From a virus, in IMG/VR virus record IMGVR_UViG_3300031772_000165, positions 1 through 32,805 of that record: a stretch of DNA of 32,805 bases. The stretch is one strand, 5' to 3'. This document shows, one piece after another, positions 1-27,910 of the stretch; positions within the stretch are counted from its first letter, which is position 1, and every line of letters starts with the position of its first letter. The notes under the pieces are model-generated. The model was given only the letters and a program-made list of their open reading frames with translations, ran no database searches and was not told the origin of the DNA. Both the position numbers and the translations under genes were made by a program.

Positions 1-2652
1 ACTCTTGGCGCTGGAATCCGCATTGGAATCCAGAATCGGAAGACGGTCGATGATGTTGGGATGCGAGAAGTATGGTGTGTCCTTCCGCAGAATCCCGTAA
101 GGGCCGTTGTAGCTCGTTTCAACTTCACCATCAATGACCAAGTTCTCGTTATCAACGACCTGAAGAACGGCGTACTTTGAAGTATTGTCCGTGTTGACGG
201 GGCTGATCAAGTCGCCCGGTCTGACATTGGAGAACCACTGTGTTCCGGCGTCCCCCTCGATGACTGAGCTATCAGCCGTGAACGTGGCTTCACCTACTGA
301 GTACGTCCAATCAGTCTTGGCACCCGATCCAGCTGTGGTGACAATTGACGGGCCCACTGCCAACAGTTTGCCTGACACAGGGCTGGTGCTGTCTATCAGA
401 CCCTGATACGGGGTTGTCTCGTAGAAACAGGTGTATCCCTCAGAGTCAGAGATGGCACTGTGGGCAAGGACAGGAACCTGAATAGCCTTGCCGGCTCCCG
501 GCGCCGATGCAAACGTCACCCGAGTCAGTGTCTTGAAGTTCCCTGATGGAAGATCATCATTGTTGGTTGTCAGGGGCACCATCGAACCGTCGACATAGGC
601 GTAACCCGCACCATTCTTGCTGAAGTAGCTGGCGAGAGCAATGACGGATTTGCTGCTGCTGTCCAGAGTGAAGATATACAGAGACCCTGTAGCGGACTCA
701 TTCGGGGTGATCTCAAGCATCTCGGAGCAATCCGTGATACCCCGAGACTGACGATTCACGTCGAAGAACTTGACTCCGGTGTAGAGCTCCAACTCAACGT
801 CACAACCGTTGGCCGCTGTCGTTCCCATATTGATCGTGTAGACCGAAGGGTCACGACTGACAACGACCGTGTTCACAGAAGAACCACTGATCTTGACCGA
901 CCGTACACCCAGAATCTGATACCCATCGATCGTCCGCGGTACCGTCACAATAGCATTACCGTTGCCACGGACATGATAGACCATCTGGTGGCCAAAATCA
1001 CTCAATGATGTAGGCAGTGCCCCGCGATTGGTCAATACATTGGTGTACGTTCCATCCGTGGTACCAACCGCCGAGGACCCCCGAATCGGGATATCATTCC
1101 CTGGAACCGCTATTGCACAGGTTGAATCCTCTTTCCGGAACTCCAAGAAGCGATCCGGAAGAGCAGTCAACCCATTCGGCCCCGAGGGGATATTGAGCGT
1201 GTATTCAGCAGTGATCGTCTTTGATGTTCCGATCAGCGGAGACATCGCGGGTATAACAAAAGTGACCAACCCCGTCGACAGGCCACCAATTGTCAGCGTC
1301 TGGCTGGCCCGGTCGTTCGAATAGGTCTGCTGTACCGACGGAATCACAGTACCAGCAGGATAGTTGGTCGTGGCATCAATCCGTACTTGGTCCCCCAAAA
1401 CCCACGGGGAACCAACAGTGCCTGCGACCTTCTGCTGAATGGTCTTGACGATTGCAGTATCCGTCTGAATTCCACCTGCATTCGAGAAGATTCGACGGGC
1501 ACCATCACCGCGAGCAATCAACGTCGACCCGAACTTGTCCTCTTCGCTGACCGCGTCGGCTTGGGCCATTATCACGGCATGGTGGTCCTCACCCAAAGTT
1601 GTGCGGGACATCTTGCCGCGGATCTTGCCCTGAATCAGCTTCTTGAACCCATCCTCAGCAAGTTCCTGCCAATTGGCCTCGGGACTCACCAGCCGGCGCA
1701 TGTCCAGAATGTCATTCGCCGCGATGATGTCATTGTACAACCCATCCGGCCGGTCCGATGCAACCCCGGCCAAGAAATTCACGCGACTCTTGCCGGCACC
1801 GTTGGAATAGTTGTTCGGGTCAAACGCTGTCTTATTCCGACGGGCAACCATGAACATCGGAATGGCATAGGTATGCCCATCAACCGTCTGAAGAGTCTCC
1901 TGAGCAACCTCATCACCAGCACCGGCAATCCAGAGCCCCGGGTCCCCAGCCACGGGAGAGAAGTACGCATGGCTACAGGTATCGATCGGGTTGTCAAGGG
2001 GGCCCTGAACATAGACCTTGTTCGGGTCAAATCCATCGGGATACCCGTCGACATCAATTGCCGATACGACGCGAATCCGGTATTGGATTTGAACACGTAG
2101 CGAGGTCTCAATACCCATTGACGGGTCAATCAGATCATTGGCCGGGTTGGTTCCACCATAGAGCCAATTTCCGTACATCTTCACCGTGTCACTTGGCTCG
2201 ATGAGCTTGCGCCAGACCTCGAGAAACACGAAATCAACCTGGCCCCCAAATCCCGGGGGCGTGTTGAGCAGGATGACATTGTTCAAATTCGTCGACGTGT
2301 TTGACCCTTGGATCAGCACCCGGTAACCGTTCACCCATGCAGTAAGACGCCCGGTCTGAATACCACGGTCCAGAGCCACGAGAGTGAATGCATTGGCCAC
2401 ATTGGCCGGCGAGCACGCTACATCACCCGCAAGAAGGTTGGTCGTACCACCATCGGTGATATTTCCAACGATATCCCAACCGCTGGGGCCAATACGACGG
2501 GCGGCCTCTTGGGACTTTTGTGACACGAGACGTCCCGATAGGTCCATTTCACAGGACAGAGGTGGCTTGCGCTTCTGGTAGATCAGCTCTTCAAAGCTGC
2601 GCCCGTCCGGGTCAAGGACTCTGGTCTGATTTGGGCCGAGATAATCGTTCAT
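1..2652 (-). CDS. Large tail/baseplate periphery protein, paralog of the propeller protein (C-terminus off window)
   Basis: The minus frame is open from ATG 2652 to the left edge: 884 residues and no stop, so the C-terminus is missing. The start is well supported by an AGGAG seven bases upstream and an ATGA overlap with the stop of the preceding gene. Residues about 20-300 are clearly paralogous to the 1330-residue protein at 8155-12147. Shared blocks include QKRKPPL near the N-terminus, FLEVWR (about 141-146), RVQIQYRIR (about 184-192), TVDG, and a PMF..ARRN motif. The remainder is beta-rich, with a segment containing FFDVNRQSRGI. At about residues 800-865 is a GT.W...GD.I type module also found in the 1874-residue protein. 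No catalytic motif is seen. By size, position and paralogy it is a structural protein of the outer baseplate or a fibre attachment protein. The structural role is well supported; the exact role is inferred. Confidence 0.85.
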   Translation of the reverse strand, partial: MNDYLGPNQTRVLDPDGRSFEELIYQKRKPPLSCEMDLSGRLVSQKSQEAARRIGPSGWDIVGNITDGGTTNLLAGDVACSPANVANAFTLVALDRGIQTGRLTAWVNGYRVLIQGSNTSTNLNNVILLNTPPGFGGQVDFVFLEVWRKLIEPSDTVKMYGNWLYGGTNPANDLIDPSMGIETSLRVQIQYRIRVVSAIDVDGYPDGFDPNKVYVQGPLDNPIDTCSHAYFSPVAGDPGLWIAGAGDEVAQETLQTVDGHTYAIPMFMVARRNKTAFDPNNYSNGAGKSRVNFLAGVASDRPDGLYNDIIAANDILDMRRLVSPEANWQELAEDGFKKLIQGKIRGKMSRTTLGEDHHAVIMAQADAVSEEDKFGSTLIARGDGARRIFSNAGGIQTDTAIVKTIQQKVAGTVGSPWVLGDQVRIDATTNYPAGTVIPSVQQTYSNDRASQTLTIGGLSTGLVTFVIPAMSPLIGTSKTITAEYTLNIPSGPNGLTALPDRFLEFRKEDSTCAIAVPGNDIPIRGSSAVGTTDGTYTNVLTNRGALPTSLSDFGHQMVYHVRGNGNAIVTVPRTIDGYQILGVRSVKISGSSVNTVVVSRDPSVYTINMGTTAANGCDVELELYTGVKFFDVNRQSRGITDCSEMLEITPNESATGSLYIFTLDSSSKSVIALASYFSKNGAGYAYVDGSMVPLTTNNDDLPSGNFKTLTRVTFASAPGAGKAIQVPVLAHSAISDSEGYTCFYETTPYQGLIDSTSPVSGKLLAVGPSIVTTAGSGAKTDWTYSVGEATFTADSSVIEGDAGTQWFSNVRPGDLISPVNTDNTSKYAVLQVVDNENLVIDGEVETSYNGPYGILRKDTPYFSHPNIIDRLPILDSNADSSAKS

Positions 2653-3539
2653 CGCTGATCTCCTGCTTGCACCCGCCATGCGAACAAGGGCATGATAGTA
2701 GACGTTTCAAAGGAAGCGGCCTTTACAATACCCTTCACGAGGCCCTCAAAATTATAGAGAAAATCATAGTACACGGAAGGGGGGAAAAACCAAGTTGTCG
2801 GATACCCCGCTTCTTTTTTGAACACTCTGTCCGAATCAAAAAGCCTGTGAGTGACCTGAGCAGTCTTGGACATAATTTCCTTGATATCGCGAAATTCATC
2901 AATCAATCGACCCGCAATAATCGAGACGGGTCTCCGGTCATTTCTTCCAAGAGCCATACATAGATTCTTGTCGGAATGCTCCACGGCAGCTTCAAACCGC
3001 TCAAAATCATCCTTCATCTCATCCAAATCCGACCGAATTCCGTTCAAGAAACTCTGGATCTTCTTGCCACCCCACATCGTCCGGGGAATGTTCGTTCGAA
3101 GAAGGCCGTCTGCGAGATCCCGGCATTTACCAACAGGTTCCGTGAAGTCTGGCAAACCCTTCTGATACCCGTTCAAATCAGGGCTGGAGGCTTTCATTTC
3201 CCGAAGCCCGCTATCCTGCTGCTCATCCGGAGGCAAGGTCAGAACAGTTATCTTGGAGTCTTCAATCTTGCCGTCCAACTGTTTCAAAACCTCATCCATG
3301 GCGCCTTGATCTTTACTCGTTCGCCAGACCTTTACCGGGCTGCTCTTACAAATCTCGATCGTGGCCATGGCTACGACCGGAAGAGCCCGTTCCATGAAGC
3401 ACTTTCGTGTGTTTGACTCCGTTATTCGACTCCCATTCACAGTTCCGTAGAAGGACTTACCATCAACGTGCAGACCAATGGAATCTTGGCCCGTACTGAT
3501 CTTTCCTACCAATTTCCCGTTCAGAGCGAGTAATTCCAT
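2649..3539 (-). CDS. Hypothetical protein in tail cluster (296 aa)
   Basis: I do not recognise this family. The product has a beta-like N-terminus (about residues 1-65, with MELLALNGKLVGK and a possible strand set up to VAMATIEIC). A charged, helix-rich middle and C-terminus follow (about 150-270, including SDLDEMKDDFERFEAA). It has no signal peptide or membrane segment. Cysteines are scattered without a CxxC pair. It starts 4 bp after the stop of the 195-residue gene and ends in an ATGA overlap with the next large gene, so it is translated as part of the tail operon. The ribosome site before ATG 3539 is weak, which suggests translational coupling. It could be an assembly chaperone or a small baseplate component; neither is shown by the sequence. 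Confidence 0.8.
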   Translation of the reverse strand: MELLALNGKLVGKISTGQDSIGLHVDGKSFYGTVNGSRITESNTRKCFMERALPVVAMATIEICKSSPVKVWRTSKDQGAMDEVLKQLDGKIEDSKITVLTLPPDEQQDSGLREMKASSPDLNGYQKGLPDFTEPVGKCRDLADGLLRTNIPRTMWGGKKIQSFLNGIRSDLDEMKDDFERFEAAVEHSDKNLCMALGRNDRRPVSIIAGRLIDEFRDIKEIMSKTAQVTHRLFDSDRVFKKEAGYPTTWFFPPSVYYDFLYNFEGLVKGIVKAASFETSTIMPLFAWRVQAGDQR

Positions 3540-4236: not shown

Positions 4237-7200
4237 TTACAACGATAGCATCTCCGTCAGCTTGGTTGTTCTGAACGATCTATCAGGCATCAATTCACGA
4301 TAAGTCTTTGTTCTGAACCTCACTAAGTGGTCAGACATAAAGTCCAACTCGTCCGGACAAGACAATGGATCACCCCTGGAAGCCCGGTCAGGAATCTTTA
4401 TCAAAGCCCCGGGGAATGAATCCGGACACGCAATCTGGTCCTCGGCAGCGACATAGATTTCGAACAGGGGGCCACAGAAAACATGGTCCTCAACTTGGTA
4501 GGTATCCTTGTTGATGAATTTCAACTTGATGCCGGTCCCGTTGTCATCCAAAAAGTTCACATACTCATGGAAGACCAACCCCACCTCTTCGGTCAGGCCT
4601 GTATCCGGGCAGAAACCTGGGAACTCGTACCCGTCATCGAGTATGCGGGAGTTGTTCGGATCGATAACCGAAACGTGGCGCTTATTCCGGATCAAGTAAC
4701 GGAACTCAACCTCAGACGGATCCGCCCTGAATGTCACACGCAGAATATCTCCAGCATCAAATGCACCATCGAGCGGACCATCACGCCAAATCAACAGATT
4801 GTCAACAACATAGAAATCCGTCCCAACATATTGCGACGTCCCATGAACGATCGATACCGCTATGGAAGTTGACAACAGATTCCTCGGAAGTTCAACCTCA
4901 CCGCGGATGAGGTCCTGTTCTGTCAAGACAATATCAGAAATCTTGATGTCGTTTTGAGCATACAGGATAATTGTACCGGTGGTCGGGTCTATCGATTGAA
5001 TGACGTCATAGTCCCTGAGTCCATCAATATAGGCCTCAACATCGATCGAGCTCGCCAAAGTTGAAGCGTCATGCATCACCGGCAACGATGGGAAATCAAG
5101 CCATCCATAGGGCTGGAATTCACGGGTCACTGTCTCCGGCAGTTGGAAGACTGTCTGACCCCTTGAAGGCCATTCCGTGTAAGTAACCTGTACCACGCCT
5201 GATGTCGTCGTATCACGCAGGATCAGATTTGAACGGAGCCTGTAGTCCGGATTTCTCAGGTGCGGAGAGCCCGTCGTGGAGTCCCCCGGTATGATCAGTT
5301 CAACATCCATGGTCACCGCGGTGTCCGTGATAATCCATGGAGCGCACTCTGACAGATGAGGAAGATCTTCACCAAACCGAATCTGGAACGTATATCCGTC
5401 GCCATCACAGATGGACGACAAAGGTAGATCCGGATCCCCACTGATTTGGAACTCTTTGAGCAGCAGGTCTGAATAAATAACCGGATTATGATGACGCCGG
5501 ATATCCTGTACCTTATGGTCCTCAACCAATCGCGGATGATAAGAGAATGTCTTCTGGAACGGCGGCGTTCCCGGCCCCAACTTCAGTACCGGATCCAGAC
5601 CATTTTCCAAATACGGGTCATTCAGCACGTAGCTGGAAGTGTCGTACAGGAACTCTGGGCTGAACACGAGATTTTTGTGATTTAGCGAATCCTGATGATT
5701 GACCAAGGATGCTCGCAGAGCTGGCTTCTGGAAGTTGTTCAGAAGCAAGGACTCATAATGGAGTCCTGTACTATCGGCCGGCGCAAATGTGGAGTTCAGG
5801 ACTGAACTATGGTGCAACAGATAGGTCCGGTAACGATATCCAATCTCGAGCGGCTGCGGATTGACCTGCGAATCCCCAGCTGCATCGAGCACCAATGTGA
5901 ACGGAGAACCCGGGCCACCCGTGTCCAACGTTCGCTCCAAATCGTCCAGAATCATCGAATATGTACCGCCGAGACCCCGGTAGTAGCTGAAGTCAATGCT
6001 GTCACCGACTTGTGGCAAACGCCCAAGGGCTGTGTTCCAATACCCGGTCGAAGCGTCGAGGACAACATGTCCCAATAATGGATAAACGGCCTGCACGGCG
6101 CCTGTCAGGCTGGTCCCATCAAGAAATACGGAGATGTCATTGATTCCTGCCAGATTCCCCGAGGAATCTGCAAGAGGCACCGATGGCATCTGCCAATAAC
6201 TCATGCCAAATACGAAAGAATCAGATCGGGTATACTCGGTACCATCCGACAGGTAGTTATACCCGAACGACATCACATTACCGGTGATTGGCGTGCCACC
6301 ACCTGAAGCATCCCACCAAGCAGGGCTGGAGAACAGGCTGATGATCCCTGCCGAAGCATCCACCGAGGTCATTGCAGATAGAGGTGTACCGTCCCGCAAG
6401 AAGGACACGTTGGCCGGGGTTGCCGGCTGCCCAGACCCATCTGTAAGGGGCGCATAGGGCATCAAGAACGAGAACGGATCACCGTAGAGCAACGGGTTGG
6501 TAATGGTGTCCTGCCAAGGGAAGGAGAGGCGCGGACTCCACATTCTCTCGGCAAGATCGACTGAATATTGTCTGGAGCTATCCCACCGGTCAAGGCAGGG
6601 CTTTCTCAGGTCCTCATAGAGAGGAACCATGAGGTCCTGTACCCAACGGTCACATATGGTTGTTGGGGTAGATTTGATCTGAAGCGGGAAGCGGCCCTGC
6701 ACATCCATCACCTTCTTGACATTCTCTTGGAATGCGGGCCGACGATATGTACTTCGCCAGAACCTTTGTTCGGTTCCAAGATTGGGGATTGGCGGGATCC
6801 ACCAGAACTGCCAATCCCCTTCAATAGCCAGAGAGGTGATTTTGACGTACTGCCCAATCTGCAAATCAGAGAACCGGATGCGTTTACCAGTTGAGGCATT
6901 GAAGAAGATTGTTTGGTAAGCTCCAGATTCGGTGATGACCTTGGTTGAGTCTACCAAATAGAATACGAGGTCAGGCGGATTGAGCGAATCTATCTGTCCT
7001 GTCGCTCCGGCAGGTGATGCAAGAACCGTGACTGACAGGGCCAAGACCGTGGGTTCCCCAAGGGATATGGTGTCATAGATCGGGACACAGCCGCCACCGA
7101 GATCCCCATATAGAATGTCGACAACCTTGTTGACATCAAGCTGCTCAGTCCAAATGAGCTGGGTGTCATAGAGAACGTGAGCCGGCTTGATCAGATTGAT

Positions 7201-7785
7201 GAAGAAATCCAAGTCGGACTTGAGCTGTTCAAAGCTGCGGCCTGACCGGAGCAGATCATCCACCAGAACTTGAACAATCATTTTGTGCGTGTCAGAGACA
7301 TCGTACGCACTGTTAGGCTTGCGGGCTTCAAGATACAGCTCTTTGAGGATGATCGGCAGCTTGGTAAAATGGCTGGCCGTCTCCTCCATGTTGATCTTGG
7401 TGCTGCCTTTGAGATAGGCATCCTTCAATGAGATGAGATAATCCCGGAAGGTCTCATTATTGTAGGCCGCCGGGGCTAATCGGTCGTGCAGAAACAGGCG
7501 CTCTCCGAGTATTTGCTGCAGGAATTGAATGCGTGTCGCCGTGTACTGTTTATCGTTCGACAGGGCACTCATATCCAACTGTAGACGGGCAAACTCCCTA
7601 GACAAAACCCGGAAAAACTGGGCAAGGTTCGTGTTGAAATTCTGCGGGTAGTTGCTTGGAATCAAATCCAACATCGAGCCGATCAGGGTTGATGCCCGGT
7701 TAAACAGGTCTACCCTGAACGACTTATCATCTGGGAAGCGGCGACGTCCCAGATCTTCCGGATTTGGCGTATACAGTGATGCCAT
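4237..7785 (-). CDS. Putative baseplate wedge protein, gpI/gp7-like position (1182 aa)
   Basis: The N-terminal ~240 residues are helical and charged. They contain a segment resembling wedge proteins that follow gpJ in P2-like and SPO1-like baseplates (SMLDLIPSNYPQNF, then FFRVLSREFARLQLDM, and later FINLIKPAHVLYD). 'IKPAH..' style motifs are typical of gpI-like tail proteins. The remainder is beta-rich. It includes a tandem repeat of about 85 residues (about 435-520 and 520-610; each with D.F.F.M.Y, a LxDGT turn and a closing F.Y strand) and a third related strand set near 910-960 with YIDGLRDYDV. The start at ATG 7785 lies 6 bp after the 119-residue gene and has only a weak AGAG site. The protein probably joins the wedge to outer fibres. 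Structural assignment is firm; orthology to gpI/gp7 is inference from order and pattern. Confidence 0.82.
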   Translation of the reverse strand: MASLYTPNPEDLGRRRFPDDKSFRVDLFNRASTLIGSMLDLIPSNYPQNFNTNLAQFFRVLSREFARLQLDMSALSNDKQYTATRIQFLQQILGERLFLHDRLAPAAYNNETFRDYLISLKDAYLKGSTKINMEETASHFTKLPIILKELYLEARKPNSAYDVSDTHKMIVQVLVDDLLRSGRSFEQLKSDLDFFINLIKPAHVLYDTQLIWTEQLDVNKVVDILYGDLGGGCVPIYDTISLGEPTVLALSVTVLASPAGATGQIDSLNPPDLVFYLVDSTKVITESGAYQTIFFNASTGKRIRFSDLQIGQYVKITSLAIEGDWQFWWIPPIPNLGTEQRFWRSTYRRPAFQENVKKVMDVQGRFPLQIKSTPTTICDRWVQDLMVPLYEDLRKPCLDRWDSSRQYSVDLAERMWSPRLSFPWQDTITNPLLYGDPFSFLMPYAPLTDGSGQPATPANVSFLRDGTPLSAMTSVDASAGIISLFSSPAWWDASGGGTPITGNVMSFGYNYLSDGTEYTRSDSFVFGMSYWQMPSVPLADSSGNLAGINDISVFLDGTSLTGAVQAVYPLLGHVVLDASTGYWNTALGRLPQVGDSIDFSYYRGLGGTYSMILDDLERTLDTGGPGSPFTLVLDAAGDSQVNPQPLEIGYRYRTYLLHHSSVLNSTFAPADSTGLHYESLLLNNFQKPALRASLVNHQDSLNHKNLVFSPEFLYDTSSYVLNDPYLENGLDPVLKLGPGTPPFQKTFSYHPRLVEDHKVQDIRRHHNPVIYSDLLLKEFQISGDPDLPLSSICDGDGYTFQIRFGEDLPHLSECAPWIITDTAVTMDVELIIPGDSTTGSPHLRNPDYRLRSNLILRDTTTSGVVQVTYTEWPSRGQTVFQLPETVTREFQPYGWLDFPSLPVMHDASTLASSIDVEAYIDGLRDYDVIQSIDPTTGTIILYAQNDIKISDIVLTEQDLIRGEVELPRNLLSTSIAVSIVHGTSQYVGTDFYVVDNLLIWRDGPLDGAFDAGDILRVTFRADPSEVEFRYLIRNKRHVSVIDPNNSRILDDGYEFPGFCPDTGLTEEVGLVFHEYVNFLDDNGTGIKLKFINKDTYQVEDHVFCGPLFEIYVAAEDQIACPDSFPGALIKIPDRASRGDPLSCPDELDFMSDHLVRFRTKTYRELMPDRSFRTTKLTEMLSL
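5955..6480 (-). repeat. Tandem beta-domain duplication inside the 1182-residue protein
   Basis: Two adjacent units of about 85 residues (roughly 6230-6480 and 5955-6225) align along their length. Each starts with DPFSF/DSFVF, then M.Y, L.D..G, an FLRDGT/FLDGT turn and a bulky W. Each closes with a strand ending SFGYNY or DFSYYR followed by G-T-Y. The repeat is seen at protein level; DNA identity is low, so the duplication is old. Confidence 0.7.
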
Positions 7786-8154: not shown

Positions 8155-11100
8155 TTACACCTTGCAGATGGGTTTGTTGGGCAGCCGGTACACTCCGATG
8201 GCGTCGGATGACCCAACGGTATTCTCTCTGCTGGAAGCAGTTGATTTTCCAAACACTACAAGGACATACTCACCCACTTCGAAGCGCCCATCAGAACAGG
8301 CCTTGACCCGGGCCAGAATCGGCGCGTAGACCTTCCTGGGAATAGTCGTCACAAGGCCCTCAGCCGAGAACTGAGTGGCAACTGAGCAGGTCTGATAGAA
8401 TGTTCTGCCGGCGGCATCGGATGATGCGGATGACAGAGTGACCTGCTGGCCTACCCCGGCCGGGATCAGGGTCGGGAGACGTACGTAGCCACTGTTGATG
8501 GAGTAGTTACCGAACTGCAGTGGGTCATAGTTCCCCAGATACTCGTCTCCCGGAACACCGGTCGTTATCGTGCCATTGAGAGGAATGTGCTCGATCGGGT
8601 TATCGTAGGGGCTCCCCGCGGCCCCGCCGGCAATTCCAAGTGTTGACACGATAACAGGTGCCACAGTGACCACATCAAGGGTCAGACTGCTTGGCAGGCT
8701 GGGAACAGTCTGCTTCGGGATGAAGTTGTATGCGATAAGCAAGCTGTCTACGTTCGGATCATTATGGGGCAATTGCGTCTGTTTCACCAGAAGCTGGACC
8801 CAAATCTTACCAATTAATGATGTTGCAAAGGTCACTCTAGCGGTACTCGTCCCCCATCCGGAGAGGACCCCAGCCTGTAGATTTGCTACTGACAAAGAAG
8901 CCCCATACCAGAAAGAATGCTGAGCGAGGCCAGATACAGTTTCAACCGTGGTTGCACCATATAGGACAGCGCTCCCCAATGATATGTCCACATAGGAAAA
9001 TGGGGCAAGAATTGAAGCCTCGACCCATCTTGATTCCACGAAGTTGTTTACAGCCTTAGTTCTCTCCGTGAAATTGACCGAGGCCCCATTACGAATCCCC
9101 TGCCATCTTGTTGTTCCCTCAAGAGCAACCGCGTAGGCCACAACCTCGACCACTGCACCTTGGACAAAAGTGTACCCAGCCACAGCAGTGACCGTTATTC
9201 CCGGGGAGAGGAATTGGATATTCTGAATCTTGTGAGAGAATCCAGACGTGATGTTGTTCACCTTGGAGACCGAGTAGATCTTCCACTTGGAATCTCCAGA
9301 GACCACTGTGATCTCCTGCTGCGGGACTTGGAGGGTCAACCCGGTCGTACCAACTGTGTAGAACAGGTGCAGTTCCACCGACGACGCCCGATTCCGCTGA
9401 CTTGTGTCGGACGAGTCTTTCGCCGGATACACCACGGCGTAGTTCTGGTGCCGGGGTATGGTTGAGTCCCAAGACTCAATGACTTTGGACGCTACAGAAT
9501 CAAGCATGCCATGATACCAGACTGTTGGGTTTCCACCGCCACTGATGTTCTGGGTCAGCTGAGGGTTGTAAGGCAGTCTGTTCAATGACGAGGCACTCGG
9601 AGAGTTGTACCTTGCCGTCAACTTGTATTTCAGCAAACCCGAATCATCATCCTTGTTCTTGATAAAGACACTGAAGACAAACTTCGGAAGGGTTGTTCCG
9701 ACACCTTCCCAATACCCCTCGACCTGCTGACCCGCATAAATTCCCTCTTTGTAGGTCGCCGAATAGTCCCATGGATTCTGACTGTACAAGCCGCTTATGG
9801 ACGGCATGGCTTGTTCAATCGGATTGGGATTGGGCGAAGCTACTGCGTTGACCTCAACGGTCTGTGTGTTGAATGTCAGTGCCGCCGAGATTGACCCGGA
9901 AGCTACGGTATTCAAACCCACAACTATCGGGTCCCCTCCGGTCCCCGCCCCAACCCGGTCAATCTGGAGCAACTGCGAACCATATTGGTCCCCGGTTCCC
10001 GACTGCCGAGCCATGACTGTGAGCATTCTGTTTCTGGACAGGAGATCGAGGTCTGACTCAAAGAGCTCGGTCAGTGACGGAATAATGATCTTACGGCGGA
10101 CATCAAGGAGATCCCCATCGACCACCATTGCCGCGGTCAAGAGGTCCGGACGAATGAATGTCCCGGGCTTGTGCTCCCCATTGGGGTTGGTCGCCGGGTC
10201 ATAAGCTGACGAGTTCCTCCGGGCAGTAATGAACATCGGAACCGCCCAGCAATACCCGTCGACCGTGTTCAGACACTTTGCACGCCACAACCCGTAGTCC
10301 CCGGTCGATGCACCCATGTTCTCGTACGGGAATTGCCCCGATAGATTGGGTCCGACACCCTTGATCGATGAAGATAGGCCGGCCTCTGGCGACGCATCAG
10401 GGTCAACCCCATTGACGATTCGAATCCGGTACTGTATCTGTACACGCTTGGTCGTTTCGACCGAGGCATCAGGATGAATGGAATCATCATTGAGGAAAAT
10501 GTCCGTGTCAACATTGCCCTCTTTGAAGACACGCTGAACGAGCCGCGCAACAGCACCGCTCGTTTCTCCTGCCCACGTATTACCTGCATCTTCAGTGCCG
10601 CGAATAACGGCGGAAGACCCAACCGCCCAACCCTTGTCCCCATCAACAAAATCCGTGGCATACAAGTTCTGGGTAACTCCGGTGTTCAGAGGAATCCACT
10701 CAGCACCAATATTGGTCGTACGAAGGGCCTTTCCACCCGCGCCCACAATCCACGCCTTGCCCATGAAAACCGGGCAGTCATTCTTGTACCAATAAGAGAC
10801 GAGAACAGTGGCGTGCAATACCGGCGCAACATTGAGGGTAATGACTCCGGTTGAACCGTTCACCGCATCCACAAGAACTTCGGTTCCATTAACTGTAACC
10901 GTGACATCGGATGGCAGATTGGTGATTGTACCCTTACCGTCGCCTTTGGAAATAGGAATATGAGCAACAATGCAGACTTTGTTCACACCATCGAATTGCG
11001 AAGTCATTTCTTCATCGGTGACCCGTTCATCCATTGTCGGGATGAGGCATACATCATTGAAATCCGTTGTCCAACGGGTATAGCTCGGATCCAAGATATT

Positions 11101-12147
11101 CCCGGAAACATCCCCCCACGTAGCCCCACCGTCGGTTGTCTTGAGGATGGTACCACCGTCACCAACCACAAAGCCGTAACTCAGCCCCCAGAAATGAACC
11201 GAGTTCAGATTTGCACCCACACCACTTGTCTGAGCCAACCACGTGGTACCACCATCCGTCGTTTTGAGGATGGTCCCGCCGCTGCCTACGACCCAACCAA
11301 CTTGATCGTTATAGAAATGGGCCTTGTTCAGGTTGGCCGTGACACCGCTGCTCTTGGTAACCCAAGTGATACCATTGGTGGTCTTAAGAACCGTACCGGA
11401 ATCCCCGACCGCCCACGCAACAAGCTGGCTATACGCATGGATCGAGTTCAGGTTCTCTGTCGTAGGACTTGTAAGCATATTCCATGTACTGCCGGCCGAA
11501 ACGGTCCTACCGATGGTTCCATTATCACCCACGACCCAACCAATGCCGCTCGTAATGAAATAGAGGCCATTCAGACTCTTTTTCGTGTTGATTGTCTGCA
11601 GCACCCAATTTGGGCTGGAAGGGCTCGAATACAGGATCAGCCCGTTCTGACCACACAACCAACCGACGTCTTCATTGTACATGAAGACACCATAGATGGA
11701 ATCAAGAATCGTGTCTGCATCGGGGCGATTAACCGAAGTATTCGGGTCAAGCAGCGCACGCCATACTTCAAGGAATACACCGCTGATACGGTTACCGGTA
11801 GTTGGAGCCGTACCCATATCGACTACATTGACATTGTCACGTTCATCAAATGTATTGGTGACCTGCAGAACCATGCCATTCACCAAAGCGTATTCGGGCT
11901 TCGCTGAAGACGGATCCTGTGTGTAGAATTGATTATGCAATGATCTGTCGACCGAGAGTGGATACATTGAGAGCCATCCGGACGGAATGCTCACGGATTG
12001 CCGATGATTGATAAGGGCCTGAATCTGCTGCACCAGATTTTGCTCGGTGTCCAGAATAGGCTTTTCTTTCTGCCAGACTACTGTATCGTAGGCATAGCCA
12101 TTCGGGTCACTGACGTATGAAACTGAACGGCCGAAATCTTCTGCCAT
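8155..12147 (-). CDS. Baseplate/tail adhesin-like protein with inserted seven-bladed propeller (1330 aa)
   Basis: Residues 1-130 and about 545-760 form a core shared with the protein at the left edge: QKEKPILDTEQNL near the N-terminus, FLEVWR (125-130), RVQIQYRIR (568-576), NTVDG, PMFITARRN, and a VRRKIIIP segment. Between FLEVWR and RVQIQYRIR lie 437 residues, against 37 in the paralog. Most of this extra sequence is seven beta-propeller repeats (about 152-541) of the Ycf48/Asp-box type (GWVVGSGGTILKTTDGGTTW in the best blade). A further ~90 residues are nested between blades five and six. Residues 760-1330 are beta-rich and unrecognised. ATG 12147 has CAGGAG six bases upstream; the gene follows the gpJ-like gene by 12 bp. 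The propeller probably acts in ligand or receptor binding or as a spacer. I see no sialidase active site. Confidence 0.88.
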   Translation of the reverse strand: MAEDFGRSVSYVSDPNGYAYDTVVWQKEKPILDTEQNLVQQIQALINHRQSVSIPSGWLSMYPLSVDRSLHNQFYTQDPSSAKPEYALVNGMVLQVTNTFDERDNVNVVDMGTAPTTGNRISGVFLEVWRALLDPNTSVNRPDADTILDSIYGVFMYNEDVGWLCGQNGLILYSSPSSPNWVLQTINTKKSLNGLYFITSGIGWVVGDNGTIGRTVSAGSTWNMLTSPTTENLNSIHAYSQLVAWAVGDSGTVLKTTNGITWVTKSSGVTANLNKAHFYNDQVGWVVGSGGTILKTTDGGTTWLAQTSGVGANLNSVHFWGLSYGFVVGDGGTILKTTDGGATWGDVSGNILDPSYTRWTTDFNDVCLIPTMDERVTDEEMTSQFDGVNKVCIVAHIPISKGDGKGTITNLPSDVTVTVNGTEVLVDAVNGSTGVITLNVAPVLHATVLVSYWYKNDCPVFMGKAWIVGAGGKALRTTNIGAEWIPLNTGVTQNLYATDFVDGDKGWAVGSSAVIRGTEDAGNTWAGETSGAVARLVQRVFKEGNVDTDIFLNDDSIHPDASVETTKRVQIQYRIRIVNGVDPDASPEAGLSSSIKGVGPNLSGQFPYENMGASTGDYGLWRAKCLNTVDGYCWAVPMFITARRNSSAYDPATNPNGEHKPGTFIRPDLLTAAMVVDGDLLDVRRKIIIPSLTELFESDLDLLSRNRMLTVMARQSGTGDQYGSQLLQIDRVGAGTGGDPIVVGLNTVASGSISAALTFNTQTVEVNAVASPNPNPIEQAMPSISGLYSQNPWDYSATYKEGIYAGQQVEGYWEGVGTTLPKFVFSVFIKNKDDDSGLLKYKLTARYNSPSASSLNRLPYNPQLTQNISGGGNPTVWYHGMLDSVASKVIESWDSTIPRHQNYAVVYPAKDSSDTSQRNRASSVELHLFYTVGTTGLTLQVPQQEITVVSGDSKWKIYSVSKVNNITSGFSHKIQNIQFLSPGITVTAVAGYTFVQGAVVEVVAYAVALEGTTRWQGIRNGASVNFTERTKAVNNFVESRWVEASILAPFSYVDISLGSAVLYGATTVETVSGLAQHSFWYGASLSVANLQAGVLSGWGTSTARVTFATSLIGKIWVQLLVKQTQLPHNDPNVDSLLIAYNFIPKQTVPSLPSSLTLDVVTVAPVIVSTLGIAGGAAGSPYDNPIEHIPLNGTITTGVPGDEYLGNYDPLQFGNYSINSGYVRLPTLIPAGVGQQVTLSSASSDAAGRTFYQTCSVATQFSAEGLVTTIPRKVYAPILARVKACSDGRFEVGEYVLVVFGKSTASSRENTVGSSDAIGVYRLPNKPICKV
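10525..11697 (-). other. Seven-bladed Ycf48/Asp-box-like beta-propeller insertion domain
   Basis: Seven repeats of about 40 residues each carry a GW.VG..GTI strand, then a T.DGG.TW-like Asp-box turn and a final LN...F strand. Approximate residue spans in the 1330-residue protein are 152-197, 198-238, 239-278, 279-318, 319-369, 461-500 and 501-541. Blades 4 and 5 are the most alike, with KTTDGGTTW against KTTDGGATW. Blades 1, 2, 6 and 7 are degenerate at the Asp-box. Ycf48/HCF136-type proteins also have seven blades (family knowledge). The fold call is strong; the ligand is unknown. Confidence 0.8.
10766..11040 (-). other. Beta-sandwich-like domain nested between propeller blades 5 and 6
   Basis: About 90 residues (370-460) interrupt the blade series. 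They contain VTVTVNGTEVLVDAVN, then GVITLNVAP and VLVSYWY. This 'V.V.G..v ... G.I.L ... v.VsY.Y' pattern resembles modules in the 1182- and 1874-residue proteins, such as ILVKNSEI...GRIILT...ISVSYYP. Blade 6 resumes at AWIVGAGGK. Confidence 0.6.
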
Positions 12148-12159
12148 AGATGACTCCTG

Positions 12160-15100
12160 TTAGAACGCCTGACGGCTCAATTCCCGGGACGCATCGAAGG
12201 TCACAGAGAACTGCCCAATGTTCAAATATTCAACCGACGCCACATTGATATCTTTTGACCCGACCTCGCCATACACAAAATATGCAGCTTGGTAGTTTTT
12301 ATTGTCCGGCAACAATCCGTCCCGGGTAGTGACAATCAATCTGCCATCGCTTTGGATGTACCCCCTGCCCGGGCCTCCCGAGACATTCAACGGATCCGAC
12401 TGCAGGACCAGAGGCATGTTTTCCTCGAAAATCCCCCTGAAATCATTCGACGACCCGCCCTTATCCACAGTCTTATAGGTCAGCACCGAGGCTACCGTGA
12501 TGTAGGACGTTGCCATACCTTCATTGAAGATTTCCCATTGAACCTTTCCTATTTCATCCCGGACAATGAAGGACCCGTCTGCCTTGACCATCCGCAAAAA
12601 TGGAAGCACGGTGTAATCGACATCCGCCACATTGTTGATGATGGCAACTACATCACTCTGGGTCAGGGAGACACCAACGCCCAGCTGAGATACGAAGTTG
12701 GCCACATCAGTACGAATTCGTGAAGTCAGATTTGATGTGCTCACCATGCCGGCCTTGGGAATAACCGTGATTACAAAATCAACATCATTCTGAAGAGCCT
12801 GCTTAGTGATAGCATCCGCACAAGCATGCTTCGTTTTGTCAATCTCTTCCTGAACCGTTCCCAGCAACCCATCCGTCGTATAGATTATCGTGAAGTTCTC
12901 GATGGCGTCATAGCTAACCAGAGCTCTCTGGCCATTGATGATCGCCCCGGATTCGATCATCCGAATTGCCGTGGGTGTGGTATCAGTACCGTTCTGGACC
13001 AGATAGTCCGCATTCGCCACGTACGTTATAGTCTTGCCCTCATTTTGCACCACGATGCTGGTTGGGTCGACGCCCAGATAATTGAGATTCTCATCCACGC
13101 CCAGAATCATCACGTGTGGTTCATCAACAATGGTCTGCGTTCCTGTTACGGGCAGATTGTTGGCAAACTTGATCCGAATTCCGTCCTTGGCGATGGTCGA
13201 GCCTCCGTCCTCGAGAGGGTCCTGCAGCCGCACAAGGTCCCAATTGTCGGTGGTAAGTGGCCCTGAAAGCTGACCGGTCACCGAGATTATTTCTACTACT
13301 GGCTGGCGCTGCAGAACAAAGACGTCTGAACTCCGGTATTTGTAGTCCACACGGATCACATCAGCAACGGCCAATCCGATCGAGGCGTTTATCGGGTTGG
13401 ACTCGTTCAAATCTATCACCTGACCATCGCCGATGATTTGATACCCTGTCAGGTCATAGTCCTGACTACGAGTAGCATTGTGAACTCTGGACACCTCGAA
13501 AATGGGCGTATGAGCCGTCACCGCGGCATTGTTTGTCTTGAATTGGAACGAAACCGCGTTGATGACTGTAAAGGGTTCATCAGCCTTCGTCCCCCCAGAG
13601 GCCACCACACTCTCGTAGGAGAAAGCGAGCTGGTCCGCAACCTGCTCCAGATGTCGACCTTGAATGTAGAGGTCGACCTTTCCCCCGATATGTTCCTTGC
13701 GGATCGGGTCCCAATCCCGGCGCATCAGACTATCCCCGGCCTTTTCAACCCGGACATTATGCACACCGGAGATACTGACAGCTATGCGGGCATATCCTCC
13801 TTCGGTTCCGGTGTCGACAAAGAAGGCCAACATAATTCTTGTGGCAAGGTCATGATTTGATTCTTGATCAACTCCAAATGAAATCGGATTGGGGTTCTCC
13901 ACCAAGAAGCCCGGATCAACTCCGGATTCATAGGTCTTTATGGTGTAGGAATCAGAGTTTCCGGATTCACCAGGAACTATGGCTTCAACATCCACCTCGA
14001 GCTCGTAACGCTGCATGGTAGGATTGTAATAGGAATCCGCAGACTGAAAATCCATGATTCTGGTAGCCTGAGTCCGGTAATTCTGGGACGGAATCCCTGC
14101 ATCAAGGTCACCTGTTGTTGCTATCAAGGCCCCTTCGTAAACTATCATATCACGAATTGGCGCCGTATCCGTGTAGAAAACTGCCGACCCGGTCGCTGAG
14201 ACGGCTGATTTGCGAATAATGTTCACGTTTGAGGCCAGCTTCACGAATTGCTGATCAATCAGGCTCTGTAGTGCTCCGTCATCTGTCAAATTCAAGGCAA
14301 CCTGCAGGGCCCTTTTCTGAAGAGAGTCCACAACCAAATCACTCTCCCCATCTCCGTTCTCATCATCAAAAGCGAGCAGGGTGCTGACCGAGAGTGACCG
14401 AGCCATGAAATCCTGAATGATGTAGAGCCGAGCCTCCTCTTCAGCTATCGGATCCATCATATCACGAAGAGCCGTACCGGGCTTGGTGTCGACACCCGTA
14501 TTACCGACCAACAATTCCCGGCTGTAGGTCAGGATGATGTCATTCTGCGTACGTCCCGGCAGGTCCGCAATTCCCGTGGTGATGATCAAAGGCGACCCTT
14601 GGAGTTCCGGCGAGTAGGTACTCTCGGAAACCTTGGCTGTTGCCGGGTCATAAATCATGGCCGTGACCACAAAGAACAGTGGAGTATCGTCCGTGAAGGG
14701 CTGATTGGGCAATAAACTTGCACCCACCAATTCTGTGTAGCGATCCGGCGTCAGAGCCTGAGAGAAATAATAGGTACGGAGGAATTCCCTGGTCGTGGTA
14801 GTGACGATAATATTGCCGGACCGATCTTCAGTTGAACCAAGCGTTTTGAAGGAATCCTCGTAAAATGAATATTGGTCAATCAGGGCTTTGTTGATCTTGG
14901 CGTAAACCCCATTCACACCACCGCTTTGGGCAGAAACGTAGAAGTTGTATCCAACGGTCTGGGGCTCAGGATTTTGAGCACAAACAACGGTTACCATATC
15001 TTGTGCCCGTTGCAGACGAATGCCTGTGGGGGACGAGATGGTGATGAAATCATCTTGCTCGATAAGCGTTATGGTAATTGTTGTGGCTGGACTGACAAAC

Positions 15101-15342
15101 TGTGTGATCCGTTCAACTGCTACGACGGTCAGAGTATTAGCACCGAGTTCCAACGTACCAGTCCAAGACCAAACCGTTTCACCCGCGGTATAAGAAACGC
15201 CCAGAGTTGACCCATTGACTTTGATGGTCTGGGAATCGGCCACGGTCGTTCCAGACAGGGTCTGAGTAGCGGTATCGGTCGTGTAGCTTGTGACCGGGGG
15301 GCACTCAACCGGGAGTAAAATAATCGGATTAGGTATTGCCAT
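12160..15342 (-). CDS. Baseplate J-like (gpJ/gp6) wedge protein (1060 aa)
   Basis: This is the central wedge protein whose ring forms the periphery of the baseplate. The N-terminal ~95 residues form an Ig-like domain (TLSGTTVADSQTIKVNGS...LELGANTLTVVA). The baseplate-J core spans roughly 245-590, with PGTALRDMMDPIAEEEARLY, then NPISFGVDQESNHDLATRI (~480) and GTEGGYARIAVSISGVHNV (~510), which fits the family's '.. s.e..R.R... g...Y...a..i.GV..v'. Residues about 594-666 hold a TR..DYDLTG module also present in the 1874-residue protein. A C-terminal wedge domain (about 835-915; DAITKQALQNDVDFVITVIP, then an LGVGVSLTQSDVVAII segment) is typical of J/gp6. Its length exceeds P2 gpJ (about 300) because of the added modules. 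ATG 15342 overlaps the previous stop by one base (TAATG), and AAGGG lies seven bases upstream. Confidence 0.9.
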   Translation of the reverse strand: MAIPNPIILLPVECPPVTSYTTDTATQTLSGTTVADSQTIKVNGSTLGVSYTAGETVWSWTGTLELGANTLTVVAVERITQFVSPATTITITLIEQDDFITISSPTGIRLQRAQDMVTVVCAQNPEPQTVGYNFYVSAQSGGVNGVYAKINKALIDQYSFYEDSFKTLGSTEDRSGNIIVTTTTREFLRTYYFSQALTPDRYTELVGASLLPNQPFTDDTPLFFVVTAMIYDPATAKVSESTYSPELQGSPLIITTGIADLPGRTQNDIILTYSRELLVGNTGVDTKPGTALRDMMDPIAEEEARLYIIQDFMARSLSVSTLLAFDDENGDGESDLVVDSLQKRALQVALNLTDDGALQSLIDQQFVKLASNVNIIRKSAVSATGSAVFYTDTAPIRDMIVYEGALIATTGDLDAGIPSQNYRTQATRIMDFQSADSYYNPTMQRYELEVDVEAIVPGESGNSDSYTIKTYESGVDPGFLVENPNPISFGVDQESNHDLATRIMLAFFVDTGTEGGYARIAVSISGVHNVRVEKAGDSLMRRDWDPIRKEHIGGKVDLYIQGRHLEQVADQLAFSYESVVASGGTKADEPFTVINAVSFQFKTNNAAVTAHTPIFEVSRVHNATRSQDYDLTGYQIIGDGQVIDLNESNPINASIGLAVADVIRVDYKYRSSDVFVLQRQPVVEIISVTGQLSGPLTTDNWDLVRLQDPLEDGGSTIAKDGIRIKFANNLPVTGTQTIVDEPHVMILGVDENLNYLGVDPTSIVVQNEGKTITYVANADYLVQNGTDTTPTAIRMIESGAIINGQRALVSYDAIENFTIIYTTDGLLGTVQEEIDKTKHACADAITKQALQNDVDFVITVIPKAGMVSTSNLTSRIRTDVANFVSQLGVGVSLTQSDVVAIINNVADVDYTVLPFLRMVKADGSFIVRDEIGKVQWEIFNEGMATSYITVASVLTYKTVDKGGSSNDFRGIFEENMPLVLQSDPLNVSGGPGRGYIQSDGRLIVTTRDGLLPDNKNYQAAYFVYGEVGSKDINVASVEYLNIGQFSVTFDASRELSRQAF

Positions 15343-19478: not shown

Positions 19479-19732
19479 TATCGAATCTTCTCCACGGTCT
19501 TTATCTGACGTTGGATCTGTTTCACATCCCGACGTATGGCATAACCGGCAATCTTCACCAAGGTCTCAAGTTCTCTGATGAACTTGCTATTTGAACTCGG
19601 ACGTCTCCATTCCAAAACTACGCCAGAGTTTTGTTGACCGTCAGGGCTGACCCGTTCCTCGACTGTATTGCTTTGGTCTGCACCAACTTCGACTCGCAAC
19701 CCTGCACTCGGTTGAATCTGTTGTTCGCCCAT
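19478..19732 (-). CDS. Small coiled-coil protein overlapping the 3' end of the giant gene (84 aa)
   Basis: The frame begins at ATG 19732, inside the 3' end of the 1874-residue gene. It overlaps that gene by 115 nt in another frame and ends in a TAATG overlap with the 583-residue gene. AGGGGGA lies about ten bases before the ATG. The N-terminal half (GEQQIQPSAGLRVEVGADQS), encoded within the overlap, is polar and probably disordered. The C-terminal half is a basic amphipathic helix (KFIRELETLVKIAGYAIRRD, then VKQIQRQIKTVEKIR) with coiled-coil spacing. The stop/start junction and ribosome site argue for a real gene. A shorter start inside the non-overlapping part would need an unsupported TTG. 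Function is unknown; an adaptor between its neighbours is plausible. Confidence 0.72.
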   Translation of the reverse strand: MGEQQIQPSAGLRVEVGADQSNTVEERVSPDGQQNSGVVLEWRRPSSNSKFIRELETLVKIAGYAIRRDVKQIQRQIKTVEKIR

Positions 19733-22700
19733 ATGTAGAGATTCCCCCTGCCGCCATCCGAGGCCCTAAGCAGTTCCTCGTCTGAAACGGTTTGAACAAT
19801 TTCGGTCCGCCGTGTCCCATTGAAATACCCAAGACGGGTATCAATCTCGGCAATCCGGTCAACTATGTAGTCGGTTCTATCCGTCAGGTTCTTGTCAGAA
19901 AGGGTTTGATAATCCACAAAACAAGGCTTCAGACCCGGGTAAACAGTTACTCTCGGATTCATGTATTCCGACCCCAGCTGGAATCCAGATGGGTCTCCAT
20001 CATAGATCAGGTTTCCCGTTGCATCAAATCCCGGGGACAGATTGATAGCAGACTTCATCGTCCCGACAGTGGGAAACATGCTGTACATGAACGAGCTGGT
20101 CTGACTCCCGTAAGGGTCAACCCAACGAATCGTCAACGCTGACTCGTCCGTGATCACGTACGGAGATGTCTTGTCTGGAGAATTTCCAATGGTGAACAAC
20201 GCCGATTGATAAAGTTGGAATGAAATCTGGTTTGTGATGCTGTATCTGCTATCAATGCCCTTCAGGAAAATATTCACCCCTGAAATAAAGATGTTATTTG
20301 TTGCATCAACGAGATCTGTCTTATACAGATTGAAGGCGTTGTTGCCCGTTGCGTCAAACCCAGACACTGTGTTTATGCCCGTCTTCAAGGCCCCCACAGT
20401 CGAGTACGTGCTATAAGGGAATGCACTCGACTGAGGCTGAAGGAACATGTCTGTCCAATAGAGGGTCAGTGCTAAGGCATTTGTGATAACCACAGGGCTT
20501 GTTTCTGTTGATGCAATTGAAAACACCTGTTGAGCCCCTGTGGTATCCCAACCCGACCAAATACCTGGCATGATCCCGCTGGAATCAGCATAGCGAATCA
20601 CAGGTTTATTGGCATCAAAATTGGCTATGCGCCGATCGTAACCAGCAGGAACCTCAAGGATAAACGTGGTCTGGCCGGCTATTGGAACATATGGGAACGG
20701 GAAGACAGTCTCACCACCAATTCCCGTCGAGGTATTCTTTCCCAGAATCTTCTGATGGCCTGCAGTGAAATCCAGAGCCCACGTTCCGGGATCCATCGCC
20801 CCCATCCAACTCCCGAGCATTGACCCATCCGCAGACAGGGCGGATGAGCAATCAAGAACGGCCTGCTGAGCCAGATAAAGAGCGGTCAACGTCTGGGACG
20901 CATCCGGACGGTTGGGCTCAAGCAGGAGGTTCTGCAGGGTATCTATCTCTTCGGAGAGCCTTGTCAGCTGCACATGGATGGCATTGGTCTGGTCTGTTAT
21001 CTCCGGAAGAATCCCATTCAAATACGGAAGAGCATACGCGGAGGAGCGATCGACTTTATCGCCTCTGGGAGGAATCCCGATAGCAATGACTTCACTTACC
21101 AAGCCCTGTTCCGTGACAAGATGGCCGCGTTCCTCACTCAGCCACATGGACTCGGAGCTGCTGTCAGAAGTATCGTAGTTGCCAACCGCGGTCATGTCCG
21201 ACGTGAACCCCAGCTTGAAATTTGCAGAGCCCGTGCTGGCGATTGACAGACGGTTGTAAGATCCCAACGTGCGTAACACCAAAACCGTCTTATACCCATA
21301 GGACGAGCTGGCATCAAAAATCCACTCCGCTGTAGCATTGATTTCCGGAATGTCATTGTTGATGGTTTGGGCTGCATCGTCCAAAGAGAACTTTCGCAAC
21401 GACTTTTGTTTGCTGAGAGGCGGGGGAAATGTGGGATCACTGAAGGTAGCATCCTTCTGCACCCCGTCGACCCAACAACTGAACACGTCCCCGTTTACGA
21501 GCTTGGGACGAATGGAGGCCCGAGTCCCATTGATTTTGGGACCCAAATACCCATCGTCATCGAACAATGGGAACTTCGAGGTAAGCGTGAACAACTCCCC
21601 GTCGCTCGACGATGTTGGACCCGCATAGGGGTCCATAATAATCACTGTGCTGTCACTCAGGGCCGTGACAACCATGTAGTCTCTGGTTCCGTCCACCGGG
21701 CGTATCCAACCACCTGCGAGTGTCTGGAGTTCCCACCGTGTGCCAAAGCCGTTCGGGTCAACTACCCCGGTCACGATGTTGCTGCCATTGGTAAAAATGG
21801 CCCCGCCGGGCCCGTTCGTAGCCCCCGTCAGAGGTGTAATGAGAGCAGGATCATAGGAAGTCCAATCTGAATTTGGCCAGAGTCTGTTGAAAGACTTGGA
21901 CGCAATCATGCCTTGGTCATACTTTGACAATAGTCCATCGTTGTTACAGAGTTTGTATCCGAAAACGGAATACATCTCTGCACTCAAATCCTGCAGCCGG
22001 TCACTGAAGTAGTCGTAGATGGTCTCGTAGGTTCTGCACCAGATTTCAGCATCCCGTTGCCGGAACGGGTCATTCACCAAGCCACCTTCTGCGTTCCCTT
22101 GATCAGCATCACTCGGCAGGTCTCCGCCCTGACCCCCACCGCCCGCAAGTTGTGCATTTTCTTCATCGATCGCCGGCTCCACAACTTCTTCTAGGAACTG
22201 CAATCGAGTCATGACCTGAACGTAGAATTGGTCCAGATTATCATATTGAAACGAAGCTTGCAGCCTCGACCTCGCGGGAAGCATCGAGAAATATCTGGCT
22301 GAGTAGGAAACAGTGGAGTCCCCCAGATAGTCACGGCCGATATAGTCCAACGAATAACGCTGACCAGGTTCAAGCCCAGAGTTGAGCGTGATCCCCTCAT
22401 TGAATATCTGAAAATCTTCCGTGTATTGGCCATTAAAAAGGAGCGACGTACGCACGGGCAGCACAGTGGAGGAGTCCAGCCACGTAGCCAATCCAGAAAC
22501 CGGCTTCAGACGAAGACTCATCCAATCTGAAATGTAGACCGCTGCAGCAAACGGACCAATACTAAGGCTACCGGAGAGGTCCGCGAGCGTTGCATTGTTG
22601 TTCCAATCAAACCGGTAGGAGCTTGCATCAGTAACGATGCTCATGGCGGAGGCATCGATTGAAACGTACGCAGTGCCTTTTGATTGATAGCTGAGTGTCA

Positions 22701-25259: not shown

Positions 25260-25868
25260 TCAAGCAAATTTTCCGGTTGCCGCTGCCGCTGGAATGGTCA
25301 CAGGACCAGCTGGAGGACCAGCAAAAGCACCCACACAGGTTGCCATAACAGTAGCTGCCTGTGTAATGTGATTGCAGATTCCACCAGCAATACAAGAGAC
25401 CAACGGCTGTAGTTTAGTTCCACCGATGACTTTGACTGCTTCCATACCGAGAATCTGTGCTTCGAGACCCTTTGCCACGACCCCGAGGACTTTACCCTGA
25501 CCGATACCCGGGCCACCACCAATGACTGCTCCTACAACGATGACAGTCTTCATGGCTTGAACCACGCCAAAGGATATGGAATCAAACAGTTTCTTGATGT
25601 CCCGTCCTGCAAGGCCCTGGGGGGATGCCAAGAGCATCATTTGGCTGCTCATACCAGACGGAGTCAAATTCAGGATCTGGCCTGTAAAGGTCCCGGCGCC
25701 CGGTCCAAGGACCGTACAGGTAGGGTTTGACATACCCACAGACATGATATAGGCCGCGGTCGCATTGGCGACAGCCGAAATCAAGGGCTGCAGCTTATCC
25801 CCAGACAAAGTCAGGGGGGCCGCCTTGCTCATGGCCAAGCCCGTGATAGATGTTGGAACCAATGGCAT
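25260..25868 (-). CDS. Small spike-tip-position protein with internal duplication (202 aa)
   Basis: The protein is Gly/Ala/Pro-rich and hydrophobic. Its two ends are related: residues about 20-63 (LSGDKLQPLISAVANATAAY ... NPTCTVLGPGAG) and about 147-189 (IGGTKLQPLVSCIAGGICNH ... MATCVGAFAGPP). The middle contains GAVIGGGPGIGQGK. Cysteines at 51, 159, 165 and 178 and His167 could bind a metal. It lies directly downstream of the spike gene, overlapping its stop by one base (TAATG) with AGGGA upstream. That is the place where phages and type VI systems often encode a PAAR-type tip. The standard PAAR repeat is not evident, so the tip role is inferred from position and composition. A chaperone-like or baseplate-centre component is an alternative. 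Confidence 0.83.
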   Translation of the reverse strand: MPLVPTSITGLAMSKAAPLTLSGDKLQPLISAVANATAAYIMSVGMSNPTCTVLGPGAGTFTGQILNLTPSGMSSQMMLLASPQGLAGRDIKKLFDSISFGVVQAMKTVIVVGAVIGGGPGIGQGKVLGVVAKGLEAQILGMEAVKVIGGTKLQPLVSCIAGGICNHITQAATVMATCVGAFAGPPAGPVTIPAAAATGKFA

Positions 25869-27814: not shown

Positions 27815-27864
27815 ATATATAACCTGTGTCCCCAACTCTTCCAACTTCTCCGCTTACGCTTCAT
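27811..27864 (-). CDS. Possible 17-residue basic leader peptide before the spike gene
   Basis: In the 96-bp gap before the spike gene, ATG 27864 opens a 17-codon frame (MKRKRRSWKSWGHRLYI). Its TGA overlaps the spike ATG as ATGA. GGTGGTAAGGG lies just upstream, and an in-frame ATG at 27882 would add six residues. The peptide has seven Lys/Arg in seventeen positions. It could couple translation of the spike gene to ribosomes arriving from the hub gene. The frame is short and may be chance. Confidence 0.3.
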   Translation of the reverse strand: MKRKRRSWKSWGHRLYI

Positions 27865-27910
27865 ACCCTTACCACCAATCATACATTGGGCTGTTGATTG
27901 TTTGACAGTT

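Follow-up and report, generated by a model that had tools for sequence, protein, structure and literature searches.

Ycf48/HCF136 (PF14870; PDB 2xbg and 5ojr) is a free-standing assembly factor of photosystem II (PSII) with a seven-bladed propeller, and Ycf48 proper has a conserved arginine patch. In phage tail proteins propellers are already known, with the receptor-binding protein (RBP) of phage 80alpha, the eBAP3 lectins of extracellular contractile injection systems (eCIS) and the wedge proteins of cyanophages as cases. The 80alpha RBP has a five-bladed propeller platform (PMC7048315), and the eBAP3-5 fibres are baseplate-anchored, some of them, the eBAP3 fibres of eCIS, carrying propeller lectins (PMC12923769). 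Both RBPs and TssK dock on baseplates through a shoulder domain (PMC7291167). Shoulder-like features have been reported for eBAP3-5 and for the crown of the thylakoid-anchored contractile injection system (tCIS), and DUF6519 is eBAP5, a baseplate anchor of eCIS fibres, which carries an insertion of its own (PMC12923769). Here we describe a Ycf48-type propeller inserted into a putative baseplate anchor of a virus. The window is the whole stretch of DNA analyzed, 32,805 nucleotides of IMG/VR record IMGVR_UViG_3300031772_000165, and the gene in question is the open reading frame (ORF) 8155-12147 on its minus strand, which encodes 1330 amino acids. Like the 80alpha RBP it uses a propeller in a tail protein, there as the platform of a receptor-binding protein; unlike it, it does not have five blades, the 80alpha scaffold or a coiled-coil stem.

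The propeller and its nested domain

PF14870 (PSII_BNR/Ycf48) was the one Pfam family found in the 1330-residue ORF, with 73.7 bits against a cut-off of 27 (E 2e-20), and it matched all 29 propeller-bearing homologs. Between residues 146 and 537 the sequence shows seven repeats, whose blade-to-blade Smith-Waterman scores averaged 66.9, compared with 22.5 +/- 1.2 for shuffled blades, and chance repeats were rejected on this ground. We modeled 740 residues with AlphaFold2 (AF2), using an alignment of the 29 propeller-bearing sequences as input; the predicted local distance difference test score (pLDDT) was about 90 over the blades and 77 on average across the 740 residues. In a Foldseek search of the PDB the first 11 matches were all Ycf48/HCF136 (best E 6.7e-13), and residues 148-530 of the model superposed on the designed seven-bladed propeller 7bie over 279 of 286 residues with Z 33.1 (VIA-align). 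A profile built from five of the propellers retrieved Ycf48 sequences at E 1e-26. In the model, the ring is closed and complete and has seven blades. A first-pass annotation, made from the letters alone, had placed a complete closed Ycf48-type propeller of seven blades inside a baseplate protein at 10525-11697 (residues ~151-541 of the ORF) and had called for structure prediction and a PDB search. Both returned a closed seven-bladed ring with Ycf48 as the best fold, the gene context agrees, and the propeller proper spans residues ~146-537. The gene is laid out as follows, with hidden Markov model abbreviated to HMM.

8155..12147, minus strand: whole gene, predicted 1330-residue baseplate-anchor/fibre protein with inserted propeller (ORF; PF14870 E 2e-20; scaffold HMM E 5e-112 in two pieces)
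11719..12147, minus strand: N-terminal half of the scaffold, putative shoulder-type anchor, residues 1-143 (scaffold HMM positions 1-154; DUF6519 profile match to the scaffold family)
10537..11712, minus strand: inserted seven-bladed propeller, residues ~146-537 (Pfam, AF2, Foldseek, structure superposition, propeller profile)
11575..11706, minus strand: blade 1, residues 148-191 (blade HMM, AF2 strands)
11452..11574, minus strand: blade 2, residues 192-232 (blade HMM, AF2 strands)
11332..11451, minus strand: blade 3, residues 233-272 (blade HMM, AF2 strands)
11209..11331, minus strand: blade 4, residues 273-313, Asp-box TTDGGTTW (blade HMM, AF2 strands)
11086..11208, minus strand: blade 5, residues 314-354, Asp-box TTDGGATW (blade HMM, AF2 strands)
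10666..11085, minus strand: blade 6, residues 355-494, nested domain between strands A and B (AF2 strands 363-371 and 462-469 flank the insert; blade HMM)
10777..11010, minus strand: nested beta domain of type A in blade 6, residues 380-457 (own HMM 8e-38; different domain in the sister clade; tandem duplicate in L121)
10543..10665, minus strand: blade 7, residues 495-535 (blade HMM, AF2 strands)
9988..10536, minus strand: C-terminal half of the putative anchor scaffold, residues 538-720 (scaffold HMM positions 149-346)

The repeats had been described as seven units of ~40 residues, which is right in number and wrong for blade 6: a separate beta domain of ~78 residues (~380-457) sits within its strand A-B hairpin. 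Likewise, the Asp-box is near-intact in blades 4 and 5, as had been claimed, and drifted in all the others; blade 3, which reads TTNGITW, was missing from the earlier list of drifted blades. The nested domain varies among relatives. The clade of the window has this ~78-residue type A, which is duplicated in tandem in one relative, L121, while the sister clade (L079, L080 and others) has a different domain of roughly 110-150 residues at the same place in blade 6. In related phages, large baseplate proteins of neighbouring genes also gave weak matches to type A.

The host scaffold

The residues on both sides of the propeller form one domain that is split by the insertion. The junction is precise: the sequence runs VFLEVWRALL...NRPDA, propeller, RVFKEGN...ETTKRVQIQYRIR, such that the scaffold is interrupted after the VFLEVWRA strand and resumes with RVFKEGN...ETTKRVQIQYRIRV. 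When a profile of seven DUF6519 proteins was compared to the scaffold profile with hhalign, they aligned with 96.7% probability (E 3.8e-10) over DUF6519 positions 2-181, which is the whole N-terminal anchor domain. The two families have common motifs, V..QQGR..LDADWNE in DUF6519 and VVWQ..KP.LDAELN in the scaffold, and LVYL.VW.R..T and VFLEVWRA, respectively. Seven sequences were needed for this alignment, as a single DUF6519 sequence gave a weak hhalign result (6.5% probability). PF20129 (DUF6519) itself was not matched in the window even at E 10, Pfam and PHROGs searches of the scaffold gave no match, a search of PDB chains by sequence with the scaffold profile gave none, and a search of viral contigs with one DUF6519 sequence found none.

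The window contains a second, propeller-free copy of the scaffold. An AF2 model of this paralog matched the phi812 baseplate protein 9euj (Foldseek 6e-5, Z 9.3), and it gave Z 7.3 with the RBP of lactococcal phage 1358, 6.3 with that of p2, 6.1 with the Anabaena tCIS baseplate (7b5h) and 6.0 with TssK; values of 6-7 are modest, those below 8 can be chance and the phi812 match alone lies above this level, a point that counts against the anchor assignment. The lactococcal RBP shoulders, TssK and 7b5h may thus have the fold of the scaffold, and a role in baseplate attachment would be common to them; they differ in having no propeller in the scaffold loop, and no sequence match to them was detected. 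Gene order provides a further comparison. In eCIS-like plasmid loci the DUF6519 genes lie behind a baseplate J gene and a tail protein gene, and in the window the propeller-bearing gene directly follows Baseplate_J. DUF6519/eBAP5 thus resembles the scaffold in the alignment over the N-terminal anchor domain and in its position behind baseplate J, and eBAP5 likewise carries an insertion (PMC12923769). The differences are that there is no direct Pfam match here, that the insert here is a propeller and that this is a phage, not an eCIS. Because profile, fold and gene order agree, even with individual Z values that are modest, the best reading of ORF 8155-12147 is a shoulder-type baseplate-anchor/fibre protein whose scaffold is distantly related to DUF6519/eBAP5. 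The baseplate-type host protein of the first-pass annotation is thereby narrowed to a predicted anchor; the nested domain and the propeller-free paralog had been overlooked.

Relatives, paired paralogs and gain of the propeller

A scan of viral contigs with the whole protein as a single sequence yielded no confirmed relative, and an alignment was needed as query. With the propeller excised, the query found Tunturi_5 gp247, Bacillus phage G gp211 and two proteins of the 485-kb phage LR745208, in all of which the scaffold domain is uninterrupted and has no propeller. Phage G and Tunturiibacter phage Tunturi_5 are cultured jumbo phages, and their homologous scaffolds are natural empty sites. In alignment-based scans of IMG/VR the scaffold was present in 114 ORFs. 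Blades accompany it in 37 of these, and a crude blade HMM, used for counting, detected all seven in 26 ORFs. The metagenome relatives come from assorted sources, and a search of genome contigs found the scaffold in only two metagenome bins.

We built a maximum-likelihood tree of 28 propeller-bearing and 62 propeller-free rows from which the propeller columns were excluded, using a quick method with support from the Shimodaira-Hasegawa-like approximate likelihood ratio test (SH-aLRT) only. The 28 propeller rows formed one clade with support 100, and one change on the whole tree accounts for them, which argues for one gain. Judged from the tree and the survey of records, the propeller probably entered one of two co-occurring paralogs in a single event and was then kept. 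In 21 of 21 propeller-bearing records searched whole, the scaffold is split at the same place. Exactly one continuous copy lies beside the split one in 18 of the 21; from the positions, the other three records seem to end before the expected place of the continuous copy. In the window, the propeller-free paralog is an empty-site control for the propeller-bearing gene:

1..2679, minus strand: propeller-free scaffold paralog, 893 residues, cut by the window end (scaffold HMM E 3e-100, single continuous match; modeled)
2098..2199, minus strand: empty insertion loop of the paralog, between the VFLEVWRKL and RVQIQYRIRVV strands (paralog AF2, strands 138-151 and 186-196 of the modeled stretch; alignments)

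Several propeller-bearing records exceed 200 kb and therefore derive from jumbo phages; a jumbo myophage lineage is the best reading for the protein of the window. Four other propeller-free scaffold copies, L008 (7959-11189), L049, L051 and L084, carry a different insert of ~110-130 residues in the same loop region (before NKP..IYRHGN), and the loop therefore looks like an insertion hot spot.

A Ycf48-like propeller also occurs in the baseplate wedge protein of Synechococcus phage S-CAM9 and in the baseplate wedge initiator of S-SSM7, directly behind gp25 and another wedge gene. The S-CAM9 protein (YP_009322507; L213 2888-14542, NC_031922) has 3884 residues, with the propeller near residues 3350-3640. 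It is a different host protein in which the anchor scaffold was not detected, indicating an independent insertion. In the open-licence literature we found no report of the architecture described here, of a single gain in one of two paired paralogs, or of the nested swap. What was a single odd protein becomes a defined evolutionary event that comes with natural controls: relatives in culturable jumbo phages and a paralog of the same genome show the site without an insert, and one of two added domains is nested within the other. How the baseplates of very large phages acquire modules for surface contact can be tested directly with these controls. The shoulder-type anchor family, so far known from lactococcal phages, type VI secretion and extracellular injection systems, would gain members in jumbo phages, where most tail genes lack annotation (no PHROG match).

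Possible roles and neighbouring genes

Among 29 sequences the scaffold had a mean pairwise identity of 57-58%. Blades 1-5 were at 45%, blades 6b-7 at 38% and the nested region at 32%. Within blades, strand B was most conserved and the A-B and D-A loops least. The conserved propeller columns are structural Gly and Trp, the conserved Asp are Asp-box or blade positions, and among the propeller columns with at least 85% of one residue in the 29 sequences there is no Arg, Glu, Tyr or His. The absence of such a column speaks against an enzyme and against the ligand of Ycf48 itself. A glycan-cleaving enzyme (sialidase, GH74 or other) that trims surface polysaccharide could be suspected, as sialidases contain BNR/Asp-box repeats, GH74 enzymes were among the Foldseek matches (E ~1e-9) and the BNR Pfam profile matched 8 of the 29 homologs, weakly. 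However, no conserved Arg, Glu or Tyr column could supply the Arg triad or Tyr/Glu nucleophile that sialidases have besides an Asp acid, the conserved Asp belong to the Asp-box or the blades, and the nearest folds are the non-enzymatic Ycf48 group. We rejected an active glycosidase on these grounds and consider this role very improbable. The arginine patch of Ycf48 likewise has no counterpart in the columns at this threshold. The idea of a captured auxiliary gene still serving PSII assembly in a cyanobacterial host draws on Ycf48 being the closest family and providing the closest solved structures. Yet this propeller, unlike Ycf48, is not free-standing: it forms part of a virion protein encoded in a baseplate cluster, and its sixth blade holds a nested domain. 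No photosynthesis gene was seen in the window, and the relatives come from mixed metagenomes. With the propeller lying inside the anchor scaffold, this idea was rejected; its probability is close to nil.

We favour, as a reading somewhat better than even, that the scaffold-docked propeller is a rigid platform touching the host surface or a fibre. The scaffold would dock on the baseplate wedge, and the propeller would project sideways from it, forming a fixed platform for display at the periphery. This platform, together with the variable nested domain and the variable loops, would contact either a fibre or a glycan or protein of the host surface, and the propeller-free paralog would occupy the other, non-equivalent anchor position. 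A probable single gain, its retention and an extra domain that can be swapped make the propeller a good candidate for a module of surface contact, and contact with the host surface is probable. The receptor-binding or assembly function proposed by the first-pass annotation may apply, with no ligand that can be named. Three points weigh against the platform: we found neither a ligand nor a binding site, a conserved polar site or a conserved patch on the surface; a passive spacer, too, could show lower conservation and variable loops; and a structural part would likewise be gained once and then retained throughout.

These points bear on a structural brace or spacer, which would pack on neighbouring wedge or fibre subunits and set the geometry of one anchor position with no host contact. 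One gain retained in all members of the clade, conserved columns that are only structural Gly and Trp, and a nested domain type with weak relatives in neighbouring baseplate proteins, as for generic building blocks, all speak for it. Interfaces, however, are usually conserved, yet conservation is lower in the propeller than in the scaffold and within the blades the loops vary most, and the nested domain is replaced in the sister clade and duplicated in L121. We regard a brace as possible though doubtful. In a bolder form of the platform, the propeller would be a rigid cassette for recognition that can be exchanged, fixed on one of two anchor proteins that are both obligatory and not equivalent. 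Its blade-6 hairpin would accept swapped or duplicated binding domains, and the jumbo phage would retune surface recognition in the baseplate and not at the fibre tips; this seems to us unlikely and is offered only tentatively.

The remaining features of the cluster are:

12160..15342, minus strand: Baseplate J-like protein, directly upstream of the propeller-bearing gene (PF04865 E 5.6e-14)
4237..7785, minus strand: baseplate protein between the two scaffold paralogs (phrog_1160 baseplate E 7e-4)

Tail-hub genes at 25868-30304 (minus strand) gave weak matches to baseplate hub/tail lysozyme and to a tail protein with lysin activity, as would fit a contractile-tail cluster. For a further ORF at 19618-25242 (minus strand; 1874 residues) Pfam gave nothing and PHROGs a single weak match, to a virion structural protein; its N-terminal part resembles repeated beta domains. 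Elsewhere, five phage ORFs (L190 6306-11315, L193, L153, L154 and L189) contain 10 to 24 tandem Ycf48-like blades, probably forming two or three propellers or open arrays. In phage DSL-LC01 (OQ999401; L007 4917-5789), a stand-alone propeller gene of ~290 residues, annotated as a photosystem II assembly factor, lies among collagen-like genes.

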